From a virus: a DNA stretch of 31,053 nt. This document shows, piece by piece, positions 1,865-29,726 of the stretch (position 1 is its first letter; every line of letters begins with the position of its first letter). Below the pieces are notes generated by a model. That model worked only from the letters and a program-made list of their open reading frames with translations. It was not told the origin of the DNA and did not search any database. The stretch lies in the IMG/VR virus record IMGVR_UViG_3300027896_000145, positions 1 to 31,053 of that record; one strand, written 5' to 3'. A program made the translations under genes and the position numbers.

Positions 1865-4363
1865 TTATACCATTCTTGGTGCAGATTTTGCCGTTTGATA
1901 ATCTATTTGTTTAATTTCAACTTTACGAGCAAGATTTAATTTATGTTCTAATTTAGTACCATCAATATCAAGATCAATATTAGCAACAAAACCAACATTT
2001 TTATCTGCAAATTCAACTTTAATTGGTTGTTTTAATAATTGTGTTAATTCAGATAATCCATTAATATTTGAAAAATCTATAGTAGAAATTGCTTTAAGAG
2101 ATTCTTCAATTTCACCAAATTGTCCTTTTGTACCTGAAAGTACTACTCCTATTTTTTCAAATGCATTTCCAACTTGTTCCATACCAGCACCATATGATGA
2201 TATTTTACCAATAGCAAGTGCCATTGCACCCAATCCAAGAATAGTTAAAGGATTGGCGAATAATGCGGAAGCACCTGCAAGTGCAGTCATTCCACCAGAT
2301 AATGCTAAAACATCAAGTGGTGATGCATTTTTTAATAAGTCCGCAAATCCTTCTGCCATTGCTCCAACTCCTTTTGTTGCTAAATTAATTGCAAAACCAA
2401 CACCTACTGCGGCTGCACCAAATGCTAATAAACCAAGAGAAACCAATTCACTGGCAGAACCAAGAGCAATAACAGCAGGAACTAAAATTCCAATCATAGT
2501 TCCTCCCATTATTACTAATGACCAATTAAGTGCACTTATTTGTTTTGGGTCTAATTTAGAAAAAGCATCTGCCAAGGCAGAAATTCCTTTTGTTGCTAAA
2601 TTAATACCAACACCAATACCAGCAGCAGCAACACCAACAGCAGCAATACCAGCAGCAGCACCAAATCCACTTTTACCAGCACCTCCAGCTACTTCACCAA
2701 CACCACCTTTACCAATCATACCTATTATTCCTTTAGGAATAGATATAAGTCCTTTAATTAAACTAAGACCAAGATCAAGAACTCTTGGTATTCCTAATAA
2801 TAATGCACCAATCCCTGCAAAAAATCCTGCTGATTTCATAAATGTTTTTGACCATTCGGGTAAATGTGAAAACATTCCAGCAATACCATCCATTGCTGGT
2901 TTAATATATTTAGTTAAAAGATCATTAATTCCTCTTAATAATGGTAATCCAACTGCTTTAAGTTCGAGTATAAAATATTCAAATTGTTGATCAAACGTTT
3001 GTGCTGCTTTTGCTCTTTCTTGTAATGTTGTTTTTTCTTTAACTAATAAACCTAATTCATCCGCAGTTAAAGATTTTAAATCTCTTTTTTTAGTTCCGAT
3101 TGTAACAAAGAATTTACCAGTATCAGAATTTAATTGTGCCATTCCCTGAATTAATTCTCTTTGTTCTTTATTATAACCAGTACCAACCATTGCTTTTTGA
3201 ATATCATTTAATTTTTGTTGTTGAAGGGACATATCAGTCATTTGTTCAAGATTAAATCCAAGTGCATCTCCTGCTTGTTTTAACATATCACGTGCCATTG
3301 GTGAAGCTACTTGATATTCAAAACCACTTGCGGTTTTAACTAAAGCAGTCATTCCCTTTGTCATTTCAGAAATTCTTTTATTATATGCCTCTAAATCATT
3401 ACGTCCTTCATAAAACATTTGCAAAGGATCGGCAAGTTTTGCAAATTCACCACCGAGTACTTGTAATTTCGCACCCATTTCAATAACAGAATCAAGAGTA
3501 CGTGCTTTCTCAGCACTTGCCAATCCTGTTGTTATATCAATTTTAAATTTTTCAGCATATGATGCTAAACTACCCATTCCTTCAACACCTTTTCTAAAAG
3601 TATATGTTTGTAATTTTTTATAATTTTCACTGATTACTTTCAATACTTTAGTAGCATTAACTCCCATTCTTTCACTAACATCAAGAATACCCTGAACATT
3701 TTTTGAAGCTTGAACCGCATCTTTACCTGCCATTTCAAATTTACCTGCCAATTCACCCGCCTGTTCAATAGAAAGTCCGGTTCCTTTTGCTATATTTGTT
3801 AATGCAACTAATTGTTCATCATTCATTGCAACAACACGACCAGTTTGTTCAACATAAGTAGAATATAATTTTGTTAAATCTTCTGTAGATGCCCCTAATC
3901 TTGCTGCCTGTACCGCAGAACCTTCAATAGCAGTTCTAACATCATCTGCTCTTTTTCCTGTTAAACCAAAATCAAGAATCATTTCTTTCATTGATTTATC
4001 AGATGCCATTAAACCCTTCCAATATTCTTGAATATGACTTGTTAAAATACCTAAATTTTTAGTTAAAGATAAATTATATTCATCTTGTAATTTATTTTCT
4101 TTAATAAGAACATCCATTTTTTTCTGTTGTTCTTTAGTTATTTTTAAAATGGTATCATATTCATCTGTAGTTAGTTTTCTTCCTTTTATTCTTTCTTCTC
4201 TTATTATAGTTTCAGTAATATTTTGTTTTTCTAAATATTCTAGTTGTTGTGAAAGTTCTTTAGTTCTTTTTATATCTAAATCTAATATATCGGCAAGATT
4301 ATTGCGTGAATCCCTTTCAATTTTATTACTTTCTGCTTGATATTTATCTTTTCTTTTTGCCAT
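1865..4363 (-). CDS. Tail tape measure protein
   Basis: This 832-residue protein sets tail length and is expected to fill the tail tube. The first ~110 residues are charged and helical, followed by a long Ala/Gln-rich helical region. The last third has hydrophobic, glycine-rich segments (around residues 505-550, 560-600, 610-670 and 690-720) that could become membrane-active on DNA ejection. The motif GINLATKGISALADAF recurs as AINLATKGVGAMAEGF, an internal repeat. This layout is typical of tape measure proteins although the sequence is not close to T4 gp29. At roughly 0.15 nm per residue the length predicts a tail near 125 nm (inference). It follows the frameshift-linked assembly genes, the usual position, and has its own GTATTTAT motif at 4374-4388. 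Confidence 0.85.
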   Translation of the reverse strand: MAKRKDKYQAESNKIERDSRNNLADILDLDIKRTKELSQQLEYLEKQNITETIIREERIKGRKLTTDEYDTILKITKEQQKKMDVLIKENKLQDEYNLSLTKNLGILTSHIQEYWKGLMASDKSMKEMILDFGLTGKRADDVRTAIEGSAVQAARLGASTEDLTKLYSTYVEQTGRVVAMNDEQLVALTNIAKGTGLSIEQAGELAGKFEMAGKDAVQASKNVQGILDVSERMGVNATKVLKVISENYKKLQTYTFRKGVEGMGSLASYAEKFKIDITTGLASAEKARTLDSVIEMGAKLQVLGGEFAKLADPLQMFYEGRNDLEAYNKRISEMTKGMTALVKTASGFEYQVASPMARDMLKQAGDALGFNLEQMTDMSLQQQKLNDIQKAMVGTGYNKEQRELIQGMAQLNSDTGKFFVTIGTKKRDLKSLTADELGLLVKEKTTLQERAKAAQTFDQQFEYFILELKAVGLPLLRGINDLLTKYIKPAMDGIAGMFSHLPEWSKTFMKSAGFFAGIGALLLGIPRVLDLGLSLIKGLISIPKGIIGMIGKGGVGEVAGGAGKSGFGAAAGIAAVGVAAAGIGVGINLATKGISALADAFSKLDPKQISALNWSLVIMGGTMIGILVPAVIALGSASELVSLGLLAFGAAAVGVGFAINLATKGVGAMAEGFADLLKNASPLDVLALSGGMTALAGASALFANPLTILGLGAMALAIGKISSYGAGMEQVGNAFEKIGVVLSGTKGQFGEIEESLKAISTIDFSNINGLSELTQLLKQPIKVEFADKNVGFVANIDLDIDGTKLEHKLNLARKVEIKQIDYQTAKSAPRMV

Positions 4364-4403: not shown

Positions 4404-4598
4404 TCACCTAAATCTTTTTCCTCTTCCTGACACGATATTTACTTTTTTAGTGATTTTTTCTTGTTCTGATTTAATAAAATCTGCTTCTTTTTTTAATAAA
4501 CTAAGGTAGTATCTTCTATCATGAACAGGAATATTTTCAATATATTCTGCTGAAAATCCACCATGTTTGGTAAGAAGATATATTTCTTCTCTTACCAT
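4404..4598 (-). CDS. Small tail-assembly protein / frameshift extension (GT-like T part)
   Basis: This 64-residue frame has the pattern GFSAEYIENIPVHDRRYYLSLLKKE, resembling the short C-terminal modules of phage tail or baseplate assembly chaperones. Translated alone it would start at the ATG at 4598, 17 bases after the upstream stop. However, its frame is open upstream of that ATG back through the T9 run at 4629-4637 (adding PKSLAGEYRK before the Met). That frame is exactly -1 relative to the 4616-5551 gene. I therefore read it mainly as the C-terminal extension of a frameshift fusion; independent initiation is the alternative. It lies directly before the tape measure gene. Confidence 0.65.
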   Translation of the reverse strand: MVREEIYLLTKHGGFSAEYIENIPVHDRRYYLSLLKKEADFIKSEQEKITKKVNIVSGRGKRFR

Positions 4599-5551
4599 TT
4601 TTCTATATTCACCTGCTAAAGACTTGGGAAAAAAAAATCTATACCCATTAAAATTGGTGCGGTAAAAAGTTTTCCATCAGGAGTAATAAATTCATAATTA
4701 AGATCAACATCTGGTTTAACTTCATTATATTTTCTTCTAATTGTAAGAGAATCCAATGCTGGCATTGCATCAACAAAACGATGAATATAATCTCTATCTT
4801 TACGATCATTAATTTGCATAATAGAACTTTTTAATCTCAATGTTCCAGTTTCAGCAAAATTAGTTTGATATGATTGTTGGATTGATTCAGCATTTTTAGT
4901 TATTAATCTTTCTTCTTTATGATTTAAAAGTTTAAATTTAACTAATTTTTTTCTCATAGGAATTTCAACATTAAACCAACCATTTTCATCTGGAGATATA
5001 TTTATTTCTTTATATTTTAGTTTTTTAAGATCAACTTCAGTTTCAAAAGGAATTCCAGTATAAGGATTAGTTACAGTAACTTTATATTTATGTCCATATG
5101 AAGATGCCCTTAAAAATAATAATACTGCATTTTTATCACCAACTAGCATACTTTCAACATCAATTCCTTTTGTTTTAATTTTTCTTTTTAATAAAGTATC
5201 TAACACTGTTCCATTTTCAAGTAATGCTGGAGTTGTAAGTAAATCTTCGTCTTTAGCAATTAAATATTCAACAGTTACTTCTGAAATAATATTTGGATAA
5301 AAAATTCCCTTTGAAGGTAATGGAATAATATCAAAACCAATCATTAAATCAGGATCGGTTTCTTTTGACATAGCATTTTGATATTCATCAGGATTAAAAT
5401 TCATACGTGGTGCAACAGTAGCAGCAGTTGCAAAATTTTCTTTTGAAGGGTTTAATTCTCCTTTTGATTCATGAAATCTCCTAAAAGCATCACTACGTGC
5501 TTTTTCATTAATTTCTTTTTCTGTGAGTTCTTTTTTTTGATTTTCTGCCAT
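4404..5551 (-). CDS. Predicted -1 frameshift fusion of the tail assembly protein (G-GT type)
   Basis: A -1 slip on the T9 run (plus coordinates 4629-4637) would join the 4616-5551 protein to the 4404-4598 frame, giving about 382 residues. In the zero frame the run reads GAT TTT TTT TTC, offering both T-TTT-TTT and T-TTT-TTC heptamers. After slipping the ribosome reads CCC AAG TCT TTA GCA with no stop until 4404. Long-tailed phages widely make such a minor extended chaperone just upstream of the tape measure gene (established for lambda G/GT). I saw no obvious downstream stem, and a homopolymer sequencing error could produce the same picture. Confidence 0.6.
4616..5551 (-). CDS. T4 gp26/gp51-like baseplate or tail assembly protein
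   Basis: This 311-residue protein has a charged N-terminal ~70 residues, then LPSKGIFYP and an AKDEDLLTTPALLENG stretch, a region with SYGHKYKVTVTNPYTG, and a C-terminal half with KLLNHKEERLITK. These resemble the T4_baseplate family (gp26/gp51-type assembly proteins; Pfam PF12322 from memory). It probably helps assemble the baseplate hub or tail and is not enzymatic. It is followed by the 64-residue frame and the tape measure, the position of lambda G/GT-type chaperones. Its last codons are GAT TTT TTT TTC CCA AGT CTT TAG, a slippery run three codons before the stop. A GTATTTAT motif lies at 5581-5595. Confidence 0.6.
   Translation of the reverse strand: MAENQKKELTEKEINEKARSDAFRRFHESKGELNPSKENFATAATVAPRMNFNPDEYQNAMSKETDPDLMIGFDIIPLPSKGIFYPNIISEVTVEYLIAKDEDLLTTPALLENGTVLDTLLKRKIKTKGIDVESMLVGDKNAVLLFLRASSYGHKYKVTVTNPYTGIPFETEVDLKKLKYKEINISPDENGWFNVEIPMRKKLVKFKLLNHKEERLITKNAESIQQSYQTNFAETGTLRLKSSIMQINDRKDRDYIHRFVDAMPALDSLTIRRKYNEVKPDVDLNYEFITPDGKLFTAPILMGIDFFFPSL
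4629..4637 (-). promoter_or_regulatory. Slippery T9 run, candidate -1 ribosomal frameshift site
   Basis: Nine T residues followed by CCC on the coding strand, three codons before the zero-frame stop TAG at 4616-4618. The -1 frame continues openly into the small downstream frame. Confidence 0.6.
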
Positions 5552-16702: not shown

Positions 16703-17194
16703 TTAAAGATTAAGTATACATCTATACGGTTGTATTGTGAGAGTAATCATCTGAACTGCATCTGAATCCATATCATTATTGCCAGCGTTAATATTAGTGA
16801 TCATAGCTTGTTCTATAAACCATTTTTCAACTTCTACACCAGTAGGATCAAGTGCTTTCAATAATATATTTTTCTTGTATGCAGCAGCATATCCCATACG
16901 TCCAGTTAAAGATTCAGCATGTAAACGAACCCATTCCATTAATTGTTGTGATGTTGACGGACCTATCGTATCAATAAATGTAATATCCATTGTTTCCCAA
17001 CGGTACTTTCCTGCAACATAATTCATTTCATTAATATAAGGTATTTCTACTGAATTTATAACCATTGAAGGTCTTTTAAATGTTTGTACTTTCCAAACTT
17101 CAATTCCAAGTTCATCTGCAAATTCTGCAAAGAATCTATTTTCACGCTTAGGTTCGTAATCAAACGGAATCCCACGCACAAGCTCATTAGCCAT
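16703..17194 (-). CDS. Tail tube protein (T4 gp19-like)
   Basis: This 163-residue protein has the same length as T4 gp19. It forms the stacked hexameric rings of the inner tail tube. Visible family features are FDYEPKRENRFFAEF at the N-terminus, FKRPSMVINSVEIPYINE (the strand crossing that contacts the next ring), WETMDITFID, and the C-terminal MITLTIQPYRC strand. It follows the sheath gene on the minus strand with a 91-base gap carrying its own GTATTTAT motif, so it can be made in excess of sheath. Confidence 0.88.
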   Translation of the reverse strand: MANELVRGIPFDYEPKRENRFFAEFADELGIEVWKVQTFKRPSMVINSVEIPYINEMNYVAGKYRWETMDITFIDTIGPSTSQQLMEWVRLHAESLTGRMGYAAAYKKNILLKALDPTGVEVEKWFIEQAMITNINAGNNDMDSDAVQMITLTIQPYRCILNL

Positions 17195-17285: not shown

Positions 17286-20039
17286 TTATATTCCAAGATC
17301 AGCAAATGATGCACCCGCAGGTGTAAGTGTAAATGTTATACCTATATATTCTAATGCTGGAGTTGGTTGTATATATATTTCTCCATATAATTCTTTTCTA
17401 TCAATTGATTCAGGGGTATTATTTGAACTATCCATTTTTATTTCAAATGTTGTAAGACCTCTTTCTCTACGAATAGTATCTAATACAGGATTTGCTTTTG
17501 CTAAGAATTGATCAATAGTTGTTTGGTCATTCTGTTCAAATATAAGACGAACTGCAATATTAGAAATAAGAACCTTAACCTGAAGCAATAATCTACGAAT
17601 ATTGATTCTATCAAGTGCACTTTCTTTAATTTGAAGAGTTTTTTGCCCAAATATTGCAGTACCAACGTCTGCAAAATCAGCCATTGGATTAATTCTACCT
17701 GCATAAAGGATATCACGAGCATCTAATGACATTTTATATTTAGATTTACGTGCATCAATAACTCCACGAGTTAAACCAGCAGGAGCAAACCAAGGGAATT
17801 TAACATTATCCGTAAATGCCATTGCTTTTACAACTTCTCCTGTGGGTGGTAACCAAACATTTACATTATTTTCATTATCACGTTTTTGTATCCAAGGAAA
17901 ATATGTTGCTGAGTATGAAGAATCAATATCAGCACTACTAAGTAAATCAACAATATCTTCTGCTGCAATAACATCTGATCTTTTATCACCAAATGAAAAA
18001 TCAACATCAACATTAGGGGTATCAATAACATAAAGTGAATCCGCACGTGATTGCTCAATCATATCAATAGTATTTGTAATAAGTATATTTTGATCAGACC
18101 AATTAATACCGGGAGTAGTAAACAAATTAATAGTAACTTCTTCGGGATTTGAGAAAGTATCTATTGCAGTTGACCAAGCAATAAAGTCTGTTTTTGGAGT
18201 GATGCCAGCAGCAACACCATCATAAATACCACCAGTTCTATATAAATCGCCATATGATCTACCACCACGATTTTCATCCCAACCATCAAATCCTCCATAA
18301 GGAACCAGAGTGAATTTTCTACTTCTTTTATCACCATAAATTTCACCAGTAACTATATCTGCTGCTGATTGGAATTTACCCGCACCAACATCAAAATATC
18401 CGATTTCATATGTTCCATCATAAAAAGGAGTAGGAGTTCCACCAGTAGTAGTTAAAGTTGCTCCTGAGTCCATATGGAATCCTTTTGATTTTACAAAAGC
18501 ACTTTGTCCAATATAATTAAACAAATTTTGATTAATACCACTTCCTTTTAATCCAGTTGCATCATAACCCTTTTCTGAAATACCCAAATAAACACGATTA
18601 AGTCTTTCATTTGAAGCATATTCTGTTTTATAAATAATTAATGGTGTTCTTCCACTATATGATGCTGAAGTTGCTGAAATAGCATAATTTTTAAAATTAT
18701 ATCCTTCAAACCCAGCAGGAAATGCATTTTCAGGAGCATTTGGATCAAGTTCTACCATTACATATTTACTTAAAAGATCATATTCACCATCAGAAGTTCC
18801 AATACGTTGTGCAACATAATTATTTAATCCCTTAGCCATTGTACAACGAGTAAATGATTCAAGAACAATTACATTTTCATCATTATCATTAAAATCACGA
18901 ATTATAATATCAAATTCTTTTGCAACAGGATCAATATTTACTATTGAGATTTTAATTTCCTGATTTGCAGAATTTCCATCGGAAATAGAAATTAATTTAA
19001 ATAATTTTTCAATTTTGTTACCACGTAATTCCGAAACAATCCAAGGTGTTTCAGGTGTTTGAAATTGTTCTTTATAATTTGTAAAAGCATCTGTTGTTGC
19101 TTTCAATATAGAAGTATTAACACCATATCCCCAACCTTCTGCATCTATTTTTTTAATTAAATCAGGATAGATTGCTTCAACCCAAATTTTAGTATTTTTT
19201 CCTTTTGGTTCATTACCAACAACATTTGGTAAATATTCTCTTCCATTTGAATCAAGTGAAACAATATAATCTTCACTCGTTGTACCACTTTTTGCAGTTA
19301 AAGTAAATTTACCAAATAAATCACCAGTTCCAGTATTTGTATTATTTGCTGTTATAGTTAAACTATTAATATCAAAATTAGTTAACATTGAAGCATTTTC
19401 AACATCTTCAATAGTTGCTCTTGAACGAATAACAGCTAATACCATGTTTTCATATTCAATATATGATGTTGCCGAAAGATCATATGTCTTTTTATCTACA
19501 TTACCAGAACCACCAGTATATGTAGTAGCAGTAAAAGCTATTGTTGAACCTGTAAAAGTATTTAAACCTATTTTAACCCATCCAAGAAAAACACTACCAT
19601 TATCCCCTATTTGGTTAATAGCAATGCCAAGATAAACTCCATTAATATATGATGCCGTTCCCGGTGTTGTTGAAGTAATTCCAGAAGTAGAATCATCTGC
19701 ACCAGCACTTAAAGTAATTGCCCATGCATATCCTGCATCATATCCAGATAATCCAAGTACTCTAGTTACCCATAGTTGATTAGATTCTTCAAGATAAGAA
19801 TTTACAGTATATGGTAATTGATACCTTAACTGTCCATTATTATCAAATTTTTCAGTACTTTGACCACCAAAACGTGTTCCAAATTCTCCTTTATCTTGAA
19901 GATAGATAGGCTCAAAAGCAGGACCTTTTTGAGTTTCTCCAACACTACCTAATGTTGTTATTCCTACATTTCTCTGTACAAATGTCAAATCACGTTCACG
20001 AAATTTAGCACCCGGTGATGTGAAAACAAATTCTGCCAT
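17286..20039 (-). CDS. Contractile tail sheath protein (T4 gp18-like)
   Basis: A 917-residue protein. The N-terminus FTSPGAKFRERDLTFVQRNVG and the GFDGWDENRGG and TPGINWSDQNILITNTIDMIEQ segments are typical of sheath proteins, as is the C-terminal domain (about residues 730-917) with PWFAPAGLTRGVI, LQVKVLISNIAVRLIFEQND and PALEYIGITFTL. It is well above the ~660 residues of T4 gp18; the extra length lies in the middle Ser/Thr/Gly-rich part (roughly residues 80-480), probably surface-exposed insertion domains. It is the first gene of a minus-strand pair with the tube and has its own GTATTTAT motif at 20091-20106. Confidence 0.92.
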   Translation of the reverse strand: MAEFVFTSPGAKFRERDLTFVQRNVGITTLGSVGETQKGPAFEPIYLQDKGEFGTRFGGQSTEKFDNNGQLRYQLPYTVNSYLEESNQLWVTRVLGLSGYDAGYAWAITLSAGADDSTSGITSTTPGTASYINGVYLGIAINQIGDNGSVFLGWVKIGLNTFTGSTIAFTATTYTGGSGNVDKKTYDLSATSYIEYENMVLAVIRSRATIEDVENASMLTNFDINSLTITANNTNTGTGDLFGKFTLTAKSGTTSEDYIVSLDSNGREYLPNVVGNEPKGKNTKIWVEAIYPDLIKKIDAEGWGYGVNTSILKATTDAFTNYKEQFQTPETPWIVSELRGNKIEKLFKLISISDGNSANQEIKISIVNIDPVAKEFDIIIRDFNDNDENVIVLESFTRCTMAKGLNNYVAQRIGTSDGEYDLLSKYVMVELDPNAPENAFPAGFEGYNFKNYAISATSASYSGRTPLIIYKTEYASNERLNRVYLGISEKGYDATGLKGSGINQNLFNYIGQSAFVKSKGFHMDSGATLTTTGGTPTPFYDGTYEIGYFDVGAGKFQSAADIVTGEIYGDKRSRKFTLVPYGGFDGWDENRGGRSYGDLYRTGGIYDGVAAGITPKTDFIAWSTAIDTFSNPEEVTINLFTTPGINWSDQNILITNTIDMIEQSRADSLYVIDTPNVDVDFSFGDKRSDVIAAEDIVDLLSSADIDSSYSATYFPWIQKRDNENNVNVWLPPTGEVVKAMAFTDNVKFPWFAPAGLTRGVIDARKSKYKMSLDARDILYAGRINPMADFADVGTAIFGQKTLQIKESALDRINIRRLLLQVKVLISNIAVRLIFEQNDQTTIDQFLAKANPVLDTIRRERGLTTFEIKMDSSNNTPESIDRKELYGEIYIQPTPALEYIGITFTLTPAGASFADLGI

Positions 20040-20186: not shown

Positions 20187-22391
20187 ATGAATAAATCGCA
20201 AAGAATCAAAGTTGACATTAATACTATCAGTGAAAAATACATAAAATTTAATCTTGAACAAAATATTGATTTTTTAGAAATATTATCATTAGAAATTAAT
20301 CAAAAAGATATTTATCAGAATTTTAATGCAGATTATGGAGTTTTAGTTGGTAGAGTAACTGCTAATGGTGGAGTTGGAATACCAAATGTTAAAATTTCAG
20401 TTTTTATTCCAATTACAGATATAGATAAAAATGATTCAGATATTTTTTCTTTATATCCATATGAAAGACCAACTGATAAAAATCAAGATAGTAAAAGATA
20501 TAATTTATTACCAAGAGTTGGTAGATTAAACCCCGAAACTTCAACAATAAAACCTAAACAACCATTTGGTTCATTTCCAACTAAAGAAGAAATTGTTACT
20601 AATGAAACAATTTTAGAAGTTTATGAGAAATATTATAAATATGTAACAAAAACAAATAATGTTGGTGATTATATGTTATTTGGAGTACCAATAGGTATTC
20701 AGACAGTACATATGTCTGTTGATATAACTGATATTGGGAAATATTCAATGACACCAACATCAATGATAACAAATCTTGGATATTCATCTAATTTATTTAC
20801 AGATAATAATACAAAAATAAAAGAACAAAGGGAATTAAATGATTTACCAAATATTGAAACTCAGGAAATTTCTGTAGAAATATATCCATTTTGGGGAGAT
20901 TCATCAAATTTTACTATTGGCATTACCCGTCAAGATTTTAGGATTAGAGCTGAACTTATGTCTACTTTTGTTCTTTTTGGGTCGACATTTACTATGGGAC
21001 AAGATGCGATATGGGGGTCACCAGAACATAATGATCTTAATGACGGATTTTATAAAATATCAGATGATCCAAATGTTAATCTAGATGCAAGAATAAATAG
21101 AATTGGGAAAATTACAGCTAAAATATTTACTTATCCAGCTTCTATTGATCAAACAATAATTGATAATGATATATCTAATAGTGGTACGACAATTAATACT
21201 AAAACAGATATTATTGAATTAGACCCAAATTTATATTATAGCTATATTGATAGTGGGCAATTTTTATTTGAAATTCCATGTAATAGAAGAAGAGTTATTA
21301 CTGATGAATTTGGAAATGAAATTGTAATTAGCGATAATTCTTCAAATGGGGTTTTTAGTCAATTTTTAGGTATGATTTTTTTAGAATATGAAAATCTTGA
21401 TATCACAAAAGCATATGATGAAAAATGGAAGGGAAGAAATACCCCAAATAATGCAAGACTTCGATTTAAAATCCCCCAATATAATTTTGGATTGAGAGAT
21501 TATGATAGAAGTGATACTACTTCAGATAATTATAAACAATCTGAAATATGGAGAAAACAATATTATATTTTTGAAGCAAATAAATTATATAGTGTTGCAC
21601 AATTTTTCCCAACGCAAACAACAGAAAGTGGAATACCAAACTATTTACCAGTACCACCTACATTATTTACCCAACAAATAGGTGCATTTAAAGTTCAGGG
21701 AGACGTTGATTATCTTTCCGGATCATCATATGCATTTAAAGCAGTTGGCAATTTTGACTATTTATCTGGTTCAACATATGGTTATGATATTCAAAATACT
21801 ATACCAATAAATAATGGTTATAAATATGATTTTCCCGCAAATATTCAAAATCTACAATCAAATGAATATTATTTTGGAGCACAATGGTTAAATTTTGCAA
21901 TGTATTTTCCACAAATCAATTGGACTTATAGTTCTGCTACTGGAAGAGATATGAATGCAGCAGATACTTGGTTTGAACCATATAAAGACGGATTTAAAGG
22001 TAATAATGGAGAATTTTTTGTCTCTCCTAATAATTATAATGTAGAACAACATCTCATTGGTAATAATTATAACACAAGGTTTGTTGCAACAAGAGCTAAT
22101 GCGATGCAAACAACATTTGTTGAAGTGCCAAGAGTAGATATTGTTAATTTAAATACTCTTCCTTTAAGAGGGTTAAATAAATATGATATTACTATTGGTG
22201 GTACTAATTTAATTGGTAATTATTTATATCGTGAACCATCAAATTTAGGAGTAAGTCCGGATTATGAATTAAATGCTATGGATTATCGTAATGGAATTGA
22301 TTATAGTGGTGCAACAAATCAAGCATTCCTTTTTAAAGGAATGTATAATACGGATTGTATAAAATTAATATTCGATTTAAACATTTTATAA
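20187..22391 (+). CDS. Large probable virion protein with carboxypeptidase-regulatory-like domain
   Basis: A 734-residue protein. Near residues 48-175, YGVLVGRVTANGGVGIPNVK and later NNVGDYMLFGVPIGIQTVHM have the layout of a CarboxypepD_reg / prealbumin-like beta sandwich, which is common in Bacteroidota surface proteins. The long remainder is beta-rich with many Asn, Tyr and Phe. A short tandem repeat, VDYLSGSSYAF / FDYLSGSTYGY, lies at about 21700-21783. There is no enzyme motif. It opens a plus-strand late block behind a GTATTTAT motif and is coupled by TAATG to the next gene. A baseplate-wedge or tail-surface role is inferred. Confidence 0.65.
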   Translation: MNKSQRIKVDINTISEKYIKFNLEQNIDFLEILSLEINQKDIYQNFNADYGVLVGRVTANGGVGIPNVKISVFIPITDIDKNDSDIFSLYPYERPTDKNQDSKRYNLLPRVGRLNPETSTIKPKQPFGSFPTKEEIVTNETILEVYEKYYKYVTKTNNVGDYMLFGVPIGIQTVHMSVDITDIGKYSMTPTSMITNLGYSSNLFTDNNTKIKEQRELNDLPNIETQEISVEIYPFWGDSSNFTIGITRQDFRIRAELMSTFVLFGSTFTMGQDAIWGSPEHNDLNDGFYKISDDPNVNLDARINRIGKITAKIFTYPASIDQTIIDNDISNSGTTINTKTDIIELDPNLYYSYIDSGQFLFEIPCNRRRVITDEFGNEIVISDNSSNGVFSQFLGMIFLEYENLDITKAYDEKWKGRNTPNNARLRFKIPQYNFGLRDYDRSDTTSDNYKQSEIWRKQYYIFEANKLYSVAQFFPTQTTESGIPNYLPVPPTLFTQQIGAFKVQGDVDYLSGSSYAFKAVGNFDYLSGSTYGYDIQNTIPINNGYKYDFPANIQNLQSNEYYFGAQWLNFAMYFPQINWTYSSATGRDMNAADTWFEPYKDGFKGNNGEFFVSPNNYNVEQHLIGNNYNTRFVATRANAMQTTFVEVPRVDIVNLNTLPLRGLNKYDITIGGTNLIGNYLYREPSNLGVSPDYELNAMDYRNGIDYSGATNQAFLFKGMYNTDCIKLIFDLNIL

Positions 22392-23551
22392 TGGAAGATA
22401 AAATACAATTAGGACTATTCAAAAATATAAATTCTATTAATCAGGATTTGAATATTCCTTTACCATTATCATCTTCAAAAAATTTATTAATTGAATATGA
22501 CATTAATAATGTTTTAGATATAAGTCAGGTTTTTGATGAAGAAAGACAAGATACTGATGTTTATAGACTATACGGCAAAATTGAATATTTATCTCCTTTA
22601 AATAAAATAATAAAAAATTATAATGCAATAGAAGATTTTTTTACCATACTTTCTCCTTCTACTACCGCAGAAACTAAAACAATAATAACTGATTTCAAAT
22701 TTTATTTGGTTGCTTCAACAACGGCATATACTGCATTAATAACCGGAAATACTGGAGGTACTTTTATTAAAAATTATCAAGTAATATCAAATTTAAATAA
22801 TTTTGAAATTTATAACGCAGGATTTTCAACAAATGTTTTTGGAGAACAGGAATATGCTTGGAATTTTAATACCGATTTTAATCTTGAAAATCGTTATGAT
22901 GGACTTAATTTTCCATTAACAGAATTATATCTTTATTGTGAATATCAATCCCAAGAAAATAATAGTGGTAATTATGAAACTATGGAATACAAAACATATG
23001 ATTCATTTGGCAATACCGTAATTGCCAAATTTAATTCTATTCCATTAGTAAGTGGAAATACATTAACGGGTGATATTATTATTTGGGATAAATATCAATT
23101 TACACAACAAACAATTAATCAACAAGAATTTTATATTTATACTCCTTATTCTTCAAATACATTAACATTAAAGTGGAAATACTATCCCTTTATTCCAATA
23201 ACAATTAGAGTTTTTGATGATAGTATTCAAACTGCAAATATTTCAGGAACCTCATATGAAAACATAATAAAAGTACCTACTTATGCGACTAAAATTGATA
23301 ATGATGGAAATTATGTTTGGAGAAATTTATTAGATAGAGGATTTCTTGATCCTTTAACAGCTGCCGGGGTAAATTATCCTTTTGTTAATCAGAAACAATA
23401 TGTATTTAACAACATAATATTAATAATAAAACCAGATTTTACTGATGATAATACTGCAAGCGTATTTAACCAAATTTCATATGCAGAAGATACTTTCATT
23501 AGTTCACAACCTAACAGTAATTTAACCGATATTGGGAAACCATGCAAATAA
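22391..23551 (+). CDS. Probable virion protein, IPLPLSS paralogue A
   Basis: A 386-residue protein starting at ATG 22391, whose A is the last base of the upstream TAA (TAATG coupling). An in-frame ATG at 22355 would begin inside the preceding gene and is less likely. Near the N-terminus DLNIPLPLSSSKNL closely matches DFSIPLPLSSDENF in the next protein, and NAGFSTN matches NAGFTQN there, so the two are related. The rest is beta-rich with many aromatic residues. The family is unknown; position suggests tail or baseplate. The gene overlaps the next by 10 bases. Confidence 0.65.
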   Translation: MEDKIQLGLFKNINSINQDLNIPLPLSSSKNLLIEYDINNVLDISQVFDEERQDTDVYRLYGKIEYLSPLNKIIKNYNAIEDFFTILSPSTTAETKTIITDFKFYLVASTTAYTALITGNTGGTFIKNYQVISNLNNFEIYNAGFSTNVFGEQEYAWNFNTDFNLENRYDGLNFPLTELYLYCEYQSQENNSGNYETMEYKTYDSFGNTVIAKFNSIPLVSGNTLTGDIIIWDKYQFTQQTINQQEFYIYTPYSSNTLTLKWKYYPFIPITIRVFDDSIQTANISGTSYENIIKVPTYATKIDNDGNYVWRNLLDRGFLDPLTAAGVNYPFVNQKQYVFNNIILIIKPDFTDDNTASVFNQISYAEDTFISSQPNSNLTDIGKPCK

Positions 23552-25107: not shown

Positions 25108-26346
25108 CTAAAATTTGTTCAACATATGATCAGCACCTCTTTTGACATTATTTGACACATCTTGCATTTTATTAATAATTTCTTGACTTACAAGATCGGG
25201 ATGTACCCACCAATCTTCATAACTATTATATTTATTACACCCAATATCACCAACACATAAAACATAACCAAATGAAGATAAATATTTTCTTGATTTTTCT
25301 TTTATTTCACTACTTTCGCTTAAATAATGGTCATGTTCAAAAGTTATAACTGCAAATTTACACAATTCAAATGGTATTTTTAATAAAATTTGATAACTAA
25401 TAATTGGAGGGTCACAATCAATTTGGAGATAATCATAAGTGTTTTTTTCTAAAAGAGTATTATAATTTAACTTAGTAGCATCTGCACATATTGCTTTACT
25501 TTTTCTTACTTTATTAAATTCATTAACATAATATTCATCAATATCAATTGATATACCAGACCAATTAAAATTTTCTTCCAAAAGAACAGTATTACTTTTA
25601 TAATATGGTTCTCCACAGCCAATTTCTACATATGTACCATTTTGTTTGCCATTAAGCATTGTAAGAATAAACATATCTTGATATGATTGTGAATAATTTC
25701 TTTTAATTTTAATGGATTCTGGAAATTTTATTTTAAGTCTTTCATATAAAATTTCATCATATTGTAAATCTATACTATAATTTATAAGATTATTAAGATT
25801 ATTTTTAACGGATTGAATATAAATTGATTCCATATTTGGGTTTTTATTTAATTGTCTGAATAAATGAAGGGATTCATCATAAAGTCCAATCCACCATCCC
25901 GTAACCGCTTTTTCAAAAGTAAAACCATAAAAGCCAGGATATTCTACATTTGTTTTTAATGGTTCGTATACTTTTTTTGATAATTTTAATCCAAGATTTG
26001 CCCATGTATATGCTTCTTGCCAATCTTTGTTATATTCATATGTTCTGCTTAATAAAAAATATGCTTCAGGTCTATCGGGAAGTAAAGCCACTGCTCTTAA
26101 TAAAATACCTTTTACCATAAATGTTCTTGAACCTTGTTTAGAAAGACATAAGGATAATCGTAATAATGCTTCATAAGAAAGTAATTCATCATCTCCAAAT
26201 TCTGTAGTTCTTATATAAAAAGACGAAGCAGATGCGGTGTGCCCCTCTTCTTCATAAAACCTACCCAATGTAAAATTATAATGGGGATTTTTGGGATCAA
26301 AAATAAATTGTTGTAATGCTATGTTGTAATTGTAATCGTTAATCAT
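25108..26346 (-). CDS. TPR - FkbM-type methyltransferase
   Basis: A 412-residue protein. Residues ~20-170 are TPR-like helical hairpins (FTLGRFYEEEGHTASASSFY, PEAYFLLSRTYEYNKDWQEA), a layout often seen in phage and bacterial glycan-modifying proteins. Residues ~220-400 are a SAM-dependent methyltransferase of FkbM type: SQSYQDMFIL, TYVEIGCGEP (motif I, ~238-247), SIDID (266-270), CADATKL with D289, and LQIDCDPP (307-314). It probably O-methylates a sugar or related acceptor. It is the last gene of the minus-strand cluster led by the tail fibre and the two radical SAM proteins, 12 bases after the preceding stop. Confidence 0.8.
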   Translation of the reverse strand: MINDYNYNIALQQFIFDPKNPHYNFTLGRFYEEEGHTASASSFYIRTTEFGDDELLSYEALLRLSLCLSKQGSRTFMVKGILLRAVALLPDRPEAYFLLSRTYEYNKDWQEAYTWANLGLKLSKKVYEPLKTNVEYPGFYGFTFEKAVTGWWIGLYDESLHLFRQLNKNPNMESIYIQSVKNNLNNLINYSIDLQYDEILYERLKIKFPESIKIKRNYSQSYQDMFILTMLNGKQNGTYVEIGCGEPYYKSNTVLLEENFNWSGISIDIDEYYVNEFNKVRKSKAICADATKLNYNTLLEKNTYDYLQIDCDPPIISYQILLKIPFELCKFAVITFEHDHYLSESSEIKEKSRKYLSSFGYVLCVGDIGCNKYNSYEDWWVHPDLVSQEIINKMQDVSNNVKRGADHMLNKF

Positions 26347-26358
26347 ATTTATTCATTT

Positions 26359-27168
26359 TTAATAATACCATTCGTTAATATTTTTTCTTGTATATTCCCA
26401 TTCTTCTAAATTTTTATCAAGCCCACGACAATACCCACAAAAATGAGGAACTTTATCTCTTTCTATTTGTAATTCTTCCCAAGTATTTATTTTTTCTAAA
26501 TCAATACAATCTGTTTCATTTATTTCAATAATGTGTTGATCTTTAAATTCTTCATCAAAAAATTTAAAATAAGCAATTAAAGCACATAAATATATTTTTC
26601 CATCCACTAATTGAGTACACCATTCTCTCCATCGACAATTATAATGTAATTGCTCATAATTTTCATCATGATACGGATGAAAGAATTTAGTATCAAATAC
26701 TCTTATATTTTCTTTAAGAATAGTATAAGTATTAAAATATTCTATTCCTTTATTACTAAAAAAAGTTCTTAAATTTTCATAATCAATGTCAATAGGATAA
26801 AAAGAAATTGTTATTGAAATATCATTATCACGTATCATTTTGTAAAAATTATTTCCCATGTAGAAAAGGAGAGAGCCATTAGTAAGTAATGTAATAGGAA
26901 CGTTTTTAAAGAGAGACCTTATATAAGGAATTGCTGTATTAATATTCTTATAAAGAAGAGGCTCACCACCCATTATACTTACTTTTTCAACCAGATTATT
27001 ATCGCCATTATTAGTTAATTGATAAATTTTTGCAAAATCCTGTTCAATTTTTTTTAGTGTTTTTGGTTCTTCATGTTTTACTAAACAGGAAAAATGGGAA
27101 CAACTTTTACAATTTATGTTGCATAAGTCCGTTAAATGATATTCTAAACGTAATTTCCGATCCGTCAT
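26359..27168 (-). CDS. Radical SAM protein with SPASM-like C-terminus
   Basis: A 269-residue protein. LTDLCNINCKSCSHF holds the CxxxCxxC cluster ligands (C16, C20, C23) for the [4Fe-4S] that cleaves SAM. GGEPLLYKNI and TLLTNGS are further radical SAM core motifs. The C-terminal part has CRWREWC, KIYLCALI and FCGYC, spaced like a SPASM or twitch auxiliary-cluster domain as in peptide- or sugar-modifying enzymes. Its ATG overlaps the TGA of the upstream fusion gene (ATGA), so the two are co-translated. The substrate is unknown; association with glycan genes and a fibre suggests virion or envelope modification. Confidence 0.8.
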   Translation of the reverse strand: MTDRKLRLEYHLTDLCNINCKSCSHFSCLVKHEEPKTLKKIEQDFAKIYQLTNNGDNNLVEKVSIMGGEPLLYKNINTAIPYIRSLFKNVPITLLTNGSLLFYMGNNFYKMIRDNDISITISFYPIDIDYENLRTFFSNKGIEYFNTYTILKENIRVFDTKFFHPYHDENYEQLHYNCRWREWCTQLVDGKIYLCALIAYFKFFDEEFKDQHIIEINETDCIDLEKINTWEELQIERDKVPHFCGYCRGLDKNLEEWEYTRKNINEWYY

Positions 27169-29726
27169 AAAATTTTTCCGTTTTCACACGATTTACATAA
27201 TTCAAAAGGAGTATTAATTGCAGGAATTATATCTTCATAATTTTGTGTTAATAAATTTCCTAATTTATGTTCAAGACCCCAATCCTGACAACATAATACC
27301 ACATCTCCATTAGGCAGAAGAATATTGTGACGAACATTTTCGGCTTGGTTGCAAGTTGTTAATTTATCTCTTTTAACTGTAGTAAAATATTTTATATTTC
27401 TAAGATTTTTAAGTTCTGGTTTATATATTTCTTCCTTATCTAAATTTCCTGCTCTATTCCACAGATTAAAATTATATCTTTCTGTAAATAAATCTTTTAT
27501 GCTATCATGCATTGTTCCCATACACATAATATAAAATGATGATGGGGGGTCTAAACTAATATGTTTTAATAGTTCAAGATATTGTTTTGTAATAATATGT
27601 TTTGCATAACCTTCATTATCTGGTACGTGTAAATAAAATCCTCTATTTTCCCCTCTTACAAAGGGAATTGTTTTAATCTTATCATAATCATCTATAGTCA
27701 TTCCTATACCAGTAGTAAATAATGCAACTTTATGAAAATGATGATAAGCATAATAAATCATTTCAGTACAATCTTTATGCATATAAGGTTCACCAAATCC
27801 TGCAAACACAATATCAACATCGCCCGGAATTTTATCTATTATCTTTTTAAAATTAATTAATGAAAGTTTTCTTTCTCCAAAATAATTATTTATTAATGTT
27901 TTTTGAGGACAGAATAAACAATTAACAATACACCCACCTTCTGGAATAATTGGGGTAATTTCTAAAGACAATTCTTCAATTTTTAAGCATTCATCAAGAT
28001 TAAGATTTTTACCCTTTTCTTCCCATAAATTTTTAATTTCAATATATGATTTTGTGTGCATTTCATTTTCCAAAGTTGTATCTTTTTGTTCTATATAAGT
28101 AGTTTTTAATTTTTCATATTCTTCTGAAAATAAAGGAAAATTATATGTTTTACCTAAATTAAGAAATAACATATTTTCTGTTACGGGAATATAAGCAGTA
28201 TTTAAAATGAAATCTTTATTTGGATAGTAAGTGTTTAAAAGTTTTTCAACATAATTTCTTTTCATAATATAAGCACCACTACTAAAATCAAATGGATTTC
28301 GTATTCTTAATTTCAATTCAAGTGGCATATATTTTACTATCATTAATTGAACACATTCCCAATTTTCTGGAAGTTTACATATAAAATCTTGCCATGTAAA
28401 ATTCCATTTTCCTATTATATCAAAACAAAAATCATCTTCACAAAAAAATCCATAATCTTCAAGTGTTTCATTATACCATTTTTTTATAGTTTGCAAATGT
28501 GATGTAATACCTCCCTTGCAATGGTTATTTAATTCAGGAACATTTATGCCTAAAATATTATGCATTCCTTCATAATACCTTTTATAAATATTAGGAATAA
28601 ATTTTACTATATTATATTTTTTAAACTGATTTTCAAGATTTATTCGTCTATTTTCGGATTCTTCTATACTATTATAATATATTGTTGGTAATCCAAATAA
28701 TTTATTAGTAATATTTTGTTCGGCTAGAAAATTTTTTTCATTTTTAAAATCAATTAATTCTTTAATTTCTTTTTTAGGAACTTTTAATATAAAAGCAAGA
28801 TTATCCTGAAATCCAAATGTAATTAATAAATCTTCTTTGTATAATGCCATTCCACAACAAAATTCAATTTCACCTGTCATAAAAGAAAATTGATTGGAAA
28901 TATGTACTATATTCCAATCTTTATCCCATACAATAAAACGATGAAAATATTTACCATCTTTTTGTTCTTGTCTATTAAAAAATAAAATATCTTCATGAAT
29001 AATACATATTCTATAATTTTCCCAAGGTATCACTTGAGAGCTTCCACGAAAATCACCCATATTTGGAATAATTTTTTTTGATAAAAAAACAGTTTTGGAA
29101 GTTTCTATTATTGGATTAACTACAACTATTTCAGTAGGATTTGTCCATTTTATAAAATGATAAGGCATGTCAATAATAGGCATCCAATTTTTTTCACAAT
29201 AAGAATTTGGGTCATTTGGTGGTTGAATTCTGTATCGAGCAATTTCTTTTACAATATCTTTATCAAAAACAATTTCAGATAATTCGATTCGACCCTCTCC
29301 ATTTGTTTTTGTGTCACGTCTTACACCACACATATATAATTTATTATCCCATTTAACAAGACGAGCATCTTCAAGACCAACAAATTCCCAAACAGGTTCT
29401 TTATCTAATTTCGAAGTATCTACTTTAAAATGTTCTTTTATTGAAAGATCATTGTTTAAAGTACAGAAATAATTCCATGTTCTTAAATGAATATCATTTT
29501 CAGGATTGAGATAAGTAAGCGGACCATATCGGGAATTAAAAAGTTGTTCTCCTTCGCAATGATAAAGAGTATAATTAACATGACGTAAATTCATAATTAA
29601 TTTATCGTCATCAATAAATATTGATGGATTCATTAAACCAGTACCATTTGTTTCATTACTTGGAATTATTAATGGAGTAATAGTGCCACCAACAGATAAA
29701 ATTTCTTTACAAAGATTTTTAAGCAT
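27165..29726 (-). CDS. Beta-propeller / GT25 / radical SAM-SPASM fusion protein
   Basis: An 853-residue protein with three parts. Residues ~10-320 resemble a GH43/GH130-type five-bladed beta-propeller (WEFVGLEDARLVKWDNKLYM at ~113-132, CEKNWMPI, FRGSSQVIPWENYRICIIHE). Residues ~335-535 look like a GT25 (LPS-type) glycosyltransferase: GLPTIYYNSIEESENRR, GGITSHLQTIKKWY (405-418), the FFCEDDFCF acidic motif (E430, D431, D432) and GAYIMKRNYVEKLL. Residues ~585-853 form a radical SAM domain with CIVNCLFC (599-606), FGEP (644-647), and SPASM-like cysteines C792, C812, C813, C844 and C847. It is coupled by ATGA to a second radical SAM gene. The domain calls are separate judgements; the substrate and the order of reactions are unknown. 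Confidence 0.75.
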   Translation of the reverse strand: MLKNLCKEILSVGGTITPLIIPSNETNGTGLMNPSIFIDDDKLIMNLRHVNYTLYHCEGEQLFNSRYGPLTYLNPENDIHLRTWNYFCTLNNDLSIKEHFKVDTSKLDKEPVWEFVGLEDARLVKWDNKLYMCGVRRDTKTNGEGRIELSEIVFDKDIVKEIARYRIQPPNDPNSYCEKNWMPIIDMPYHFIKWTNPTEIVVVNPIIETSKTVFLSKKIIPNMGDFRGSSQVIPWENYRICIIHEDILFFNRQEQKDGKYFHRFIVWDKDWNIVHISNQFSFMTGEIEFCCGMALYKEDLLITFGFQDNLAFILKVPKKEIKELIDFKNEKNFLAEQNITNKLFGLPTIYYNSIEESENRRINLENQFKKYNIVKFIPNIYKRYYEGMHNILGINVPELNNHCKGGITSHLQTIKKWYNETLEDYGFFCEDDFCFDIIGKWNFTWQDFICKLPENWECVQLMIVKYMPLELKLRIRNPFDFSSGAYIMKRNYVEKLLNTYYPNKDFILNTAYIPVTENMLFLNLGKTYNFPLFSEEYEKLKTTYIEQKDTTLENEMHTKSYIEIKNLWEEKGKNLNLDECLKIEELSLEITPIIPEGGCIVNCLFCPQKTLINNYFGERKLSLINFKKIIDKIPGDVDIVFAGFGEPYMHKDCTEMIYYAYHHFHKVALFTTGIGMTIDDYDKIKTIPFVRGENRGFYLHVPDNEGYAKHIITKQYLELLKHISLDPPSSFYIMCMGTMHDSIKDLFTERYNFNLWNRAGNLDKEEIYKPELKNLRNIKYFTTVKRDKLTTCNQAENVRHNILLPNGDVVLCCQDWGLEHKLGNLLTQNYEDIIPAINTPFELCKSCENGKIL

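Follow-up and report, generated by a model that had tools for sequence, protein, structure and literature searches.

The window, that is, the whole stretch of 31,053 nucleotides analysed here (IMG/VR virus record IMGVR_UViG_3300027896_000145, positions 1 to 31,053), carries on its minus strand a gene of the T4 gp26 family whose end leads, in the −1 frame, into a small open frame that is followed by a tape measure gene. The features considered below are:

4616–5551, minus strand: putative short form of a tail assembly chaperone (TAC-N, G-like), T4 gp26 family, 311 residues (PF12322, phrog_150, AlphaFold2/Foldseek)
4629–4637, minus strand: T9 slippery run, in which the zero frame (GAT TTT TTT TTC) offers both T_TTT_TTT and T_TTT_TTC; identical in 8/8 unfused clade members
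4404–4628, minus strand: putative extension in the −1 frame (T-like, C-terminal domain of gp51 type), starting at CCC and comprising 74 codons and the stop, giving a long form of 382 residues
4596–4598, minus strand: in-frame ATG, taken by mechanical gene callers as the start of a 64-residue ORF
4568–4597, minus strand: candidate downstream RNA hairpin (GGUAAG...CUUACC), from clade covariation
1865–4363, minus strand: tape measure protein, 832 residues, starting 40 nt after the extension ends
16703–17194, minus strand: tail tube protein (context), phrog_4542, E 7e-25
17286–20039, minus strand: contractile tail sheath (context), PF17482, E 1e-8, and phrog_23, E 1e-58

From 4639 to 4616, at the end of the gp26-family gene, the minus strand reads GAT TTT TTT TTC CCA AGT CTT TAG. 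A ribosome that slipped by −1 on T_TTT_TTC would go on to read CCC (4628–4626), then AAG TCT TTA GCA GGT GAA TAT AGA AAA ATG, and the −1 frame continues from the T9 run through PKSLAGEYRK into the 64-residue frame (4404–4598) without a stop. The slippery site lies near the 3′ end of the short gene, past whose stop the −1 frame is open for 71 codons, and the predicted products are a short protein of 311 residues and a long one of 382 (308 + 74). The gene end, the T9 run, all coordinates and the uninterrupted −1 frame down to 4404, as described in the original prediction, were confirmed by re-reading and translating the minus strand.

The window has a GC content of 26 %, and TTT accounts for 90 % of its Phe codons (409 TTT, 45 TTC). 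A chance model that kept the protein sequences and sampled codons according to their usage in the window predicts about 1.4 T9 runs in the coding DNA, and in 83 % of its shuffles one falls within the last 10 codons of some gene, the chief source being the FFF of the gp26-family gene itself. Since codon usage often yields such runs, the T9 alone is not evidence of frameshifting. A random frame would stay open for 71 codons past a stop with P ~0.0015 by base composition; other gene ends in the window likewise run into overlapping genes, so that a comparison of homologues is needed beyond these chance figures.

Searches of viral contigs yielded eight further members of the window's clade (51–58 % identity in the best segment). 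The sequence GATTTTTTTTTCCC is found exactly in eight of the nine members (the window and seven others), all of them unfused, and in the same eight the zero-frame stop lies four codons after the last Phe codon. Past this stop, the −1 frame is open for 61–71 codons as compared to 2–4 for the +1 frame. Over the ten codons between slip and ATG, pN/pS within the clade is 0.28 in the −1 frame, 0.77 in the zero frame and 1.39 in the +1 frame, and over 50 codons the corresponding values are 0.24, 0.69 and 1.91. Judged from these ratios, the −1 frame is under purifying selection already upstream of the first ATG, with selection at the protein level acting before any start codon. The ATG itself is present in seven of the eight unfused members, L023 having ATA at that site, and is probably internal to the extension rather than a start. 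At the level of sequence, conservation among the clade members is the decisive evidence for the −1 frame, and the homologue comparison constitutes strong evidence for its translation as a fusion. An alignment of homologues had been proposed as the check on the original prediction; slippery run and −1 open frame proved to be conserved in all eight unfused members, which, together with the purifying selection, bears out the predicted match in run type, frame and direction to the G/GT chaperone frameshift.

The ninth member (L024) reads GAG TTT TTT TTG CCC AAA AAT TTA GCG at the junction, and short gene and extension form one continuous ORF there (L024:4242–4481), for which an indel error in the contig is also possible. 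In the AlphaFold2 model of the L024 protein (pLDDT 84), a helix (residues 304–325) starts right at the junction, for which reason the codons before the ATG would, according to this model, belong to the folded extension. A +1 slip in L024 would meet a stop at once (FFCPKI*); the arrangement may be reversed, so that zero-frame reading gives the long form and a +1 slip onto the stop gives the short one. A single continuous ORF had been named beforehand as the case that would speak against frameshifting: it occurs once, in L024, and in none of the other eight members, which makes L024 an isolated exception in a clade that otherwise keeps the slippery site.

At the level of the clade, there is a modest covariation signal (0.286 vs 0.211 for shuffled alignments, 4/500) for a two-helix RNA structure that begins 7 nt downstream of the run and would be a candidate stimulatory element; the window's own downstream RNA folds no better than its shuffles (z −0.08).

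The short protein matches Pfam family PF12322 (T4_baseplate; E 3.1e-8, 34 bits vs a curated cut-off of 24.5) and phrog_150 (baseplate hub; E 2e-8), and its AlphaFold2 model (pLDDT 83) retrieves predicted phage baseplate hub and T4-like hub assembly proteins in Foldseek (best E 1e-23). A search of NCBIfam gave no match, and solved structures, searched by sequence and by fold, gave no significant match and none to solved chaperone folds. A lambdoid (HK97-type) chaperone fold was considered for the short protein and rejected, as the Foldseek match to the solved HK97 chaperone fold 2OB9 was not significant (E 3.0, probability 0.08); the protein is therefore assigned to the T4-like family, with a G/GT-like mode of action proposed for it, and not classed as lambdoid. 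The 64-residue frame weakly matches phrog_634 (gp51 "baseplate hub assembly catalyst"; E 0.038). In T4, gp26 (208 residues) and gp51 (249 residues) are separate, divergent genes without a frameshift; both belong to PF12322 and gp51 alone has the extra C-terminal stretch (phrog_634), so that in T4 each of the two forms, short and long, has its own gene. The window would thus hold the same short/long pair as T4, but as one gene plus a −1 frame. By sequence comparison, the extension corresponds to the C-terminal domain of T4 gp51, and the fusion is one of a gp26-type protein with a gp51 tail. Of the predicted gp26/51-like assembly protein with a small frame, the former therefore stands, now placed in the gp26 family (PF12322), and the latter is corrected to this gp51 counterpart. 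The next gene, starting 40 nt downstream, was rightly called a tape measure: its 832-residue product is locally similar to a protein of Flavobacterium phage immuto that is annotated as tape measure (E 3.5e-5), resembles the next gene in clade members and contains hydrophobic stretches at 511–719.

Beyond the clade, the same domain is reached by different routes. Among 155 Flavobacterium/Microcystis-type relatives, all but one have the extension in the +1 frame, and the slip sites are TTT_TTT_TGG (T7), TTT_CTT_TGG or similar. Of the 149 extensions in this +1 clade that are complete, 107 lack any ATG, GTG or TTG among the 25 codons that follow the slip; separate initiation therefore cannot account for the conserved domain there. 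In the immuto-like subset, the +1 frame has a pN/pS of 0.28 over 40 codons. The exception, L092, has its extension in the −1 frame at AAT TTC TTC TGG, at the end of the gp26-like gene, which is possibly a further direction switch or an indel error. Cyanophage-type relatives have T_TTT_TTY in 86/86 cases and the extension in the −1 frame, which is open wherever the sequence reaches far enough and has a pN/pS of 0.29 over 45 codons; an early ATG is common in this group, and an independent start is therefore possible for it. In SP-15, LIS04 and Streptococcus phage GXN1, +1 arrangements are found near CCCGA. In L007 (LR756511.1, a 595 kb phage; 4894–5166), the short gene runs about 20 codons past GFFFPRRRR and overlaps by 115 nt with the gp51-like domain in the −1 frame, which places the slip site further upstream than usual.

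That these extensions are homologous rests on profiles, because tblastn of the 76-residue extension against phage records gave two weak matches only. Profiles of the window-clade and +1-clade extensions score 98 % against each other in hhalign (E 2e-14), and the +1-clade profile scores 95 % (E 5e-8) against the cyanophage set including the T4 gp51 C-terminus, while the direct comparison of the window clade with the cyanophage/T4 set is weak (54 %, E 1e-4). By these alignments, the extension and the T4 gp51 tail are homologous, weakly so in the direct comparison and strongly through the sister clade.

Taken as a whole, the locus very probably encodes the tail assembly chaperone pair of a contractile-tailed, T4-like phage, made by a −1 frameshift in the manner of lambda gpG/gpGT and with a gp51-type extension. 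Most ribosomes would read the gp26-family gene to its TAG and yield TAC-N (311 residues), and a minority would slip back by one base on the T_TTT_TTC that closes the T9 run, most likely by tandem −1 slippage of two tRNAs, and add 74 codons to yield TAC-NC (382 residues). On the lambda model, the role of TAC-N would be to coat the tape measure, whose gene comes next, and that of the extension to bring in subunits of the tail tube. We infer the slippage itself and its rate, as well as the chaperone function, the latter by analogy with lambda G/GT.

Nine identical bases are in the range in which bacterial RNA polymerases slip, and the fusion could also arise by normal translation if the polymerase slipped on the T9 run, so that some mRNAs carried one extra U (or lacked two). 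The invariance of T9 within the clade fits this idea, and the protein outcome would be the same. The junctions of the relatives, however, are too short for it (T6 in cyanophages, NNT TTT TTC, and TTT CTT TGG in immuto-like phages), and it is considered unlikely. Because these relatives achieve the equivalent on T6 or TTT_CTT_TGG, the common mechanism would be ribosomal, although polymerase slippage may contribute in the T9 clade.

Fusion would be dispensable altogether if the 64-residue frame were a small gene of its own, whose translation began at the ATG at 4598 through coupling to the end of gp26 translation 18 nt upstream. An AGGTGA-like stretch precedes this ATG in the window, seven of eight clade members have the ATG, and gp51 is annotated as its own gene in many cyanophage records. 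This reading is nevertheless very improbable, given the conservation as protein of the ten codons between slip and ATG, the missing ATG in L023, the 107 of 149 +1-clade extensions without an early start codon, the fused L024 protein with its helix spanning the region, and T4 gp51, which has the domain only within a longer protein. Still more remote is the explanation that the split of a single gene reflects faulty sequencing or assembly, or an indel that recently disabled it: L024 does have one continuous ORF across the same junction, but eight separate contigs share the identical run and split and keep the zero-frame stop, and about 240 further relatives are also split.

In the lambda system (Levin 1993; Xu 2004; reviewed in PMC5009743), as proposed for the window, a short protein and a long one extended through a −1 shift are encoded immediately ahead of the tape measure, and the short gene has its slippery site at the 3′ end; the review assigns the short form to the tape measure and the extension to the tube protein. 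The window differs from it in its slippery sequence (T9), and no sequence or fold similarity to solved chaperones was found. The same 2016 review names T4 as the exception to an otherwise wide conservation of G-T frameshifting. The original prediction knew of no description of such a frameshift in a T4-type family, a claim to novelty that fails, as T4-like chaperones and poly-T −1 sites have been credited to Vladimirov, Gautam and Davidson (2022, Virology 566:9-15): according to passages in the PRFect paper (PMC10885494) and PMC12846349, they identified the tail assembly chaperone genes of T4-like phages, the former citing them for T4-like phages with a short gene and a long fused gene, and the latter, from 2025, for poly-T −1 signals in TAC-N genes. 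From the T4 anatomy observed here, we take these chaperones to be of the gp26/gp51 family. The window's locus is therefore a clear new example of a mechanism already described for T4-like phages. As described in PMC12846349, the TAC locus of the Vandenendeviridae and Andersonviridae, likewise contractile, has a poly-T (GTTTTT) −1 site and a small "hypothetical" frame before the tape measure, as in the window, although these are different phage families and the likeness is one of description. The window adds a clean, well-conserved chaperone frameshift case in an uncultivated T4-like lineage, and suggests that in many records a small gene listed as "hypothetical" or "gp51" is in fact the last part of a frameshifted protein.

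A tree of 76 gp26-type proteins requires four changes between −1 and +1, at least three of them forced by well supported branches, and nests the window's −1 clade inside a larger +1 group; the tree is quick and midpoint-rooted with long branches for T4, L007 and L011, so that the exact number of changes is uncertain. On balance, we favour, with some reserve, a single homologous chaperone family that obtains the same C-terminal domain via −1 (window clade, cyanophages), +1 (Flavobacterium/Microcystis- and SP-15-type), direct fusion (L024) or gene duplication (T4), with about four direction changes, the window's clade having switched from +1 to −1 and L024 perhaps having reversed. That different phages use −1, −2 or +1, and thus direction diversity in general, is on record in PMC5009743, as far as cited here; in the literature searched, no description of repeated direction switching within the gp26/gp51 chaperone family was found, and the +1 route to the same domain in close relatives is possibly less documented. 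If confirmed, such turnover would make the family a natural series for how a phage swaps its recoding direction while keeping both products.

Some further observations concern the surroundings of the tail genes. The sheath (17286–20039, minus strand) has 917 residues, about twice the 496 positions of the general sheath profile phrog_23, so that large inserted domains are probable. On the plus strand, two large ORFs (20187–22391 and 22355–23551, the second listed with a TTG start only) overlap by 37 nt in −1 register and may represent a second frameshifted pair, a single gene that was split or an ordinary overlap. An 853-residue gene product (27165–29726, minus strand) joins a glucosyltransferase-type region (phrog_2835, E 1.6e-33, residues 341–591) to a radical SAM/SPASM region; its gene adjoins those of a radical SAM protein (26359–27168) and a TPR/glycosyltransferase-like protein (25108–26346), an unusual cluster beside tail genes.
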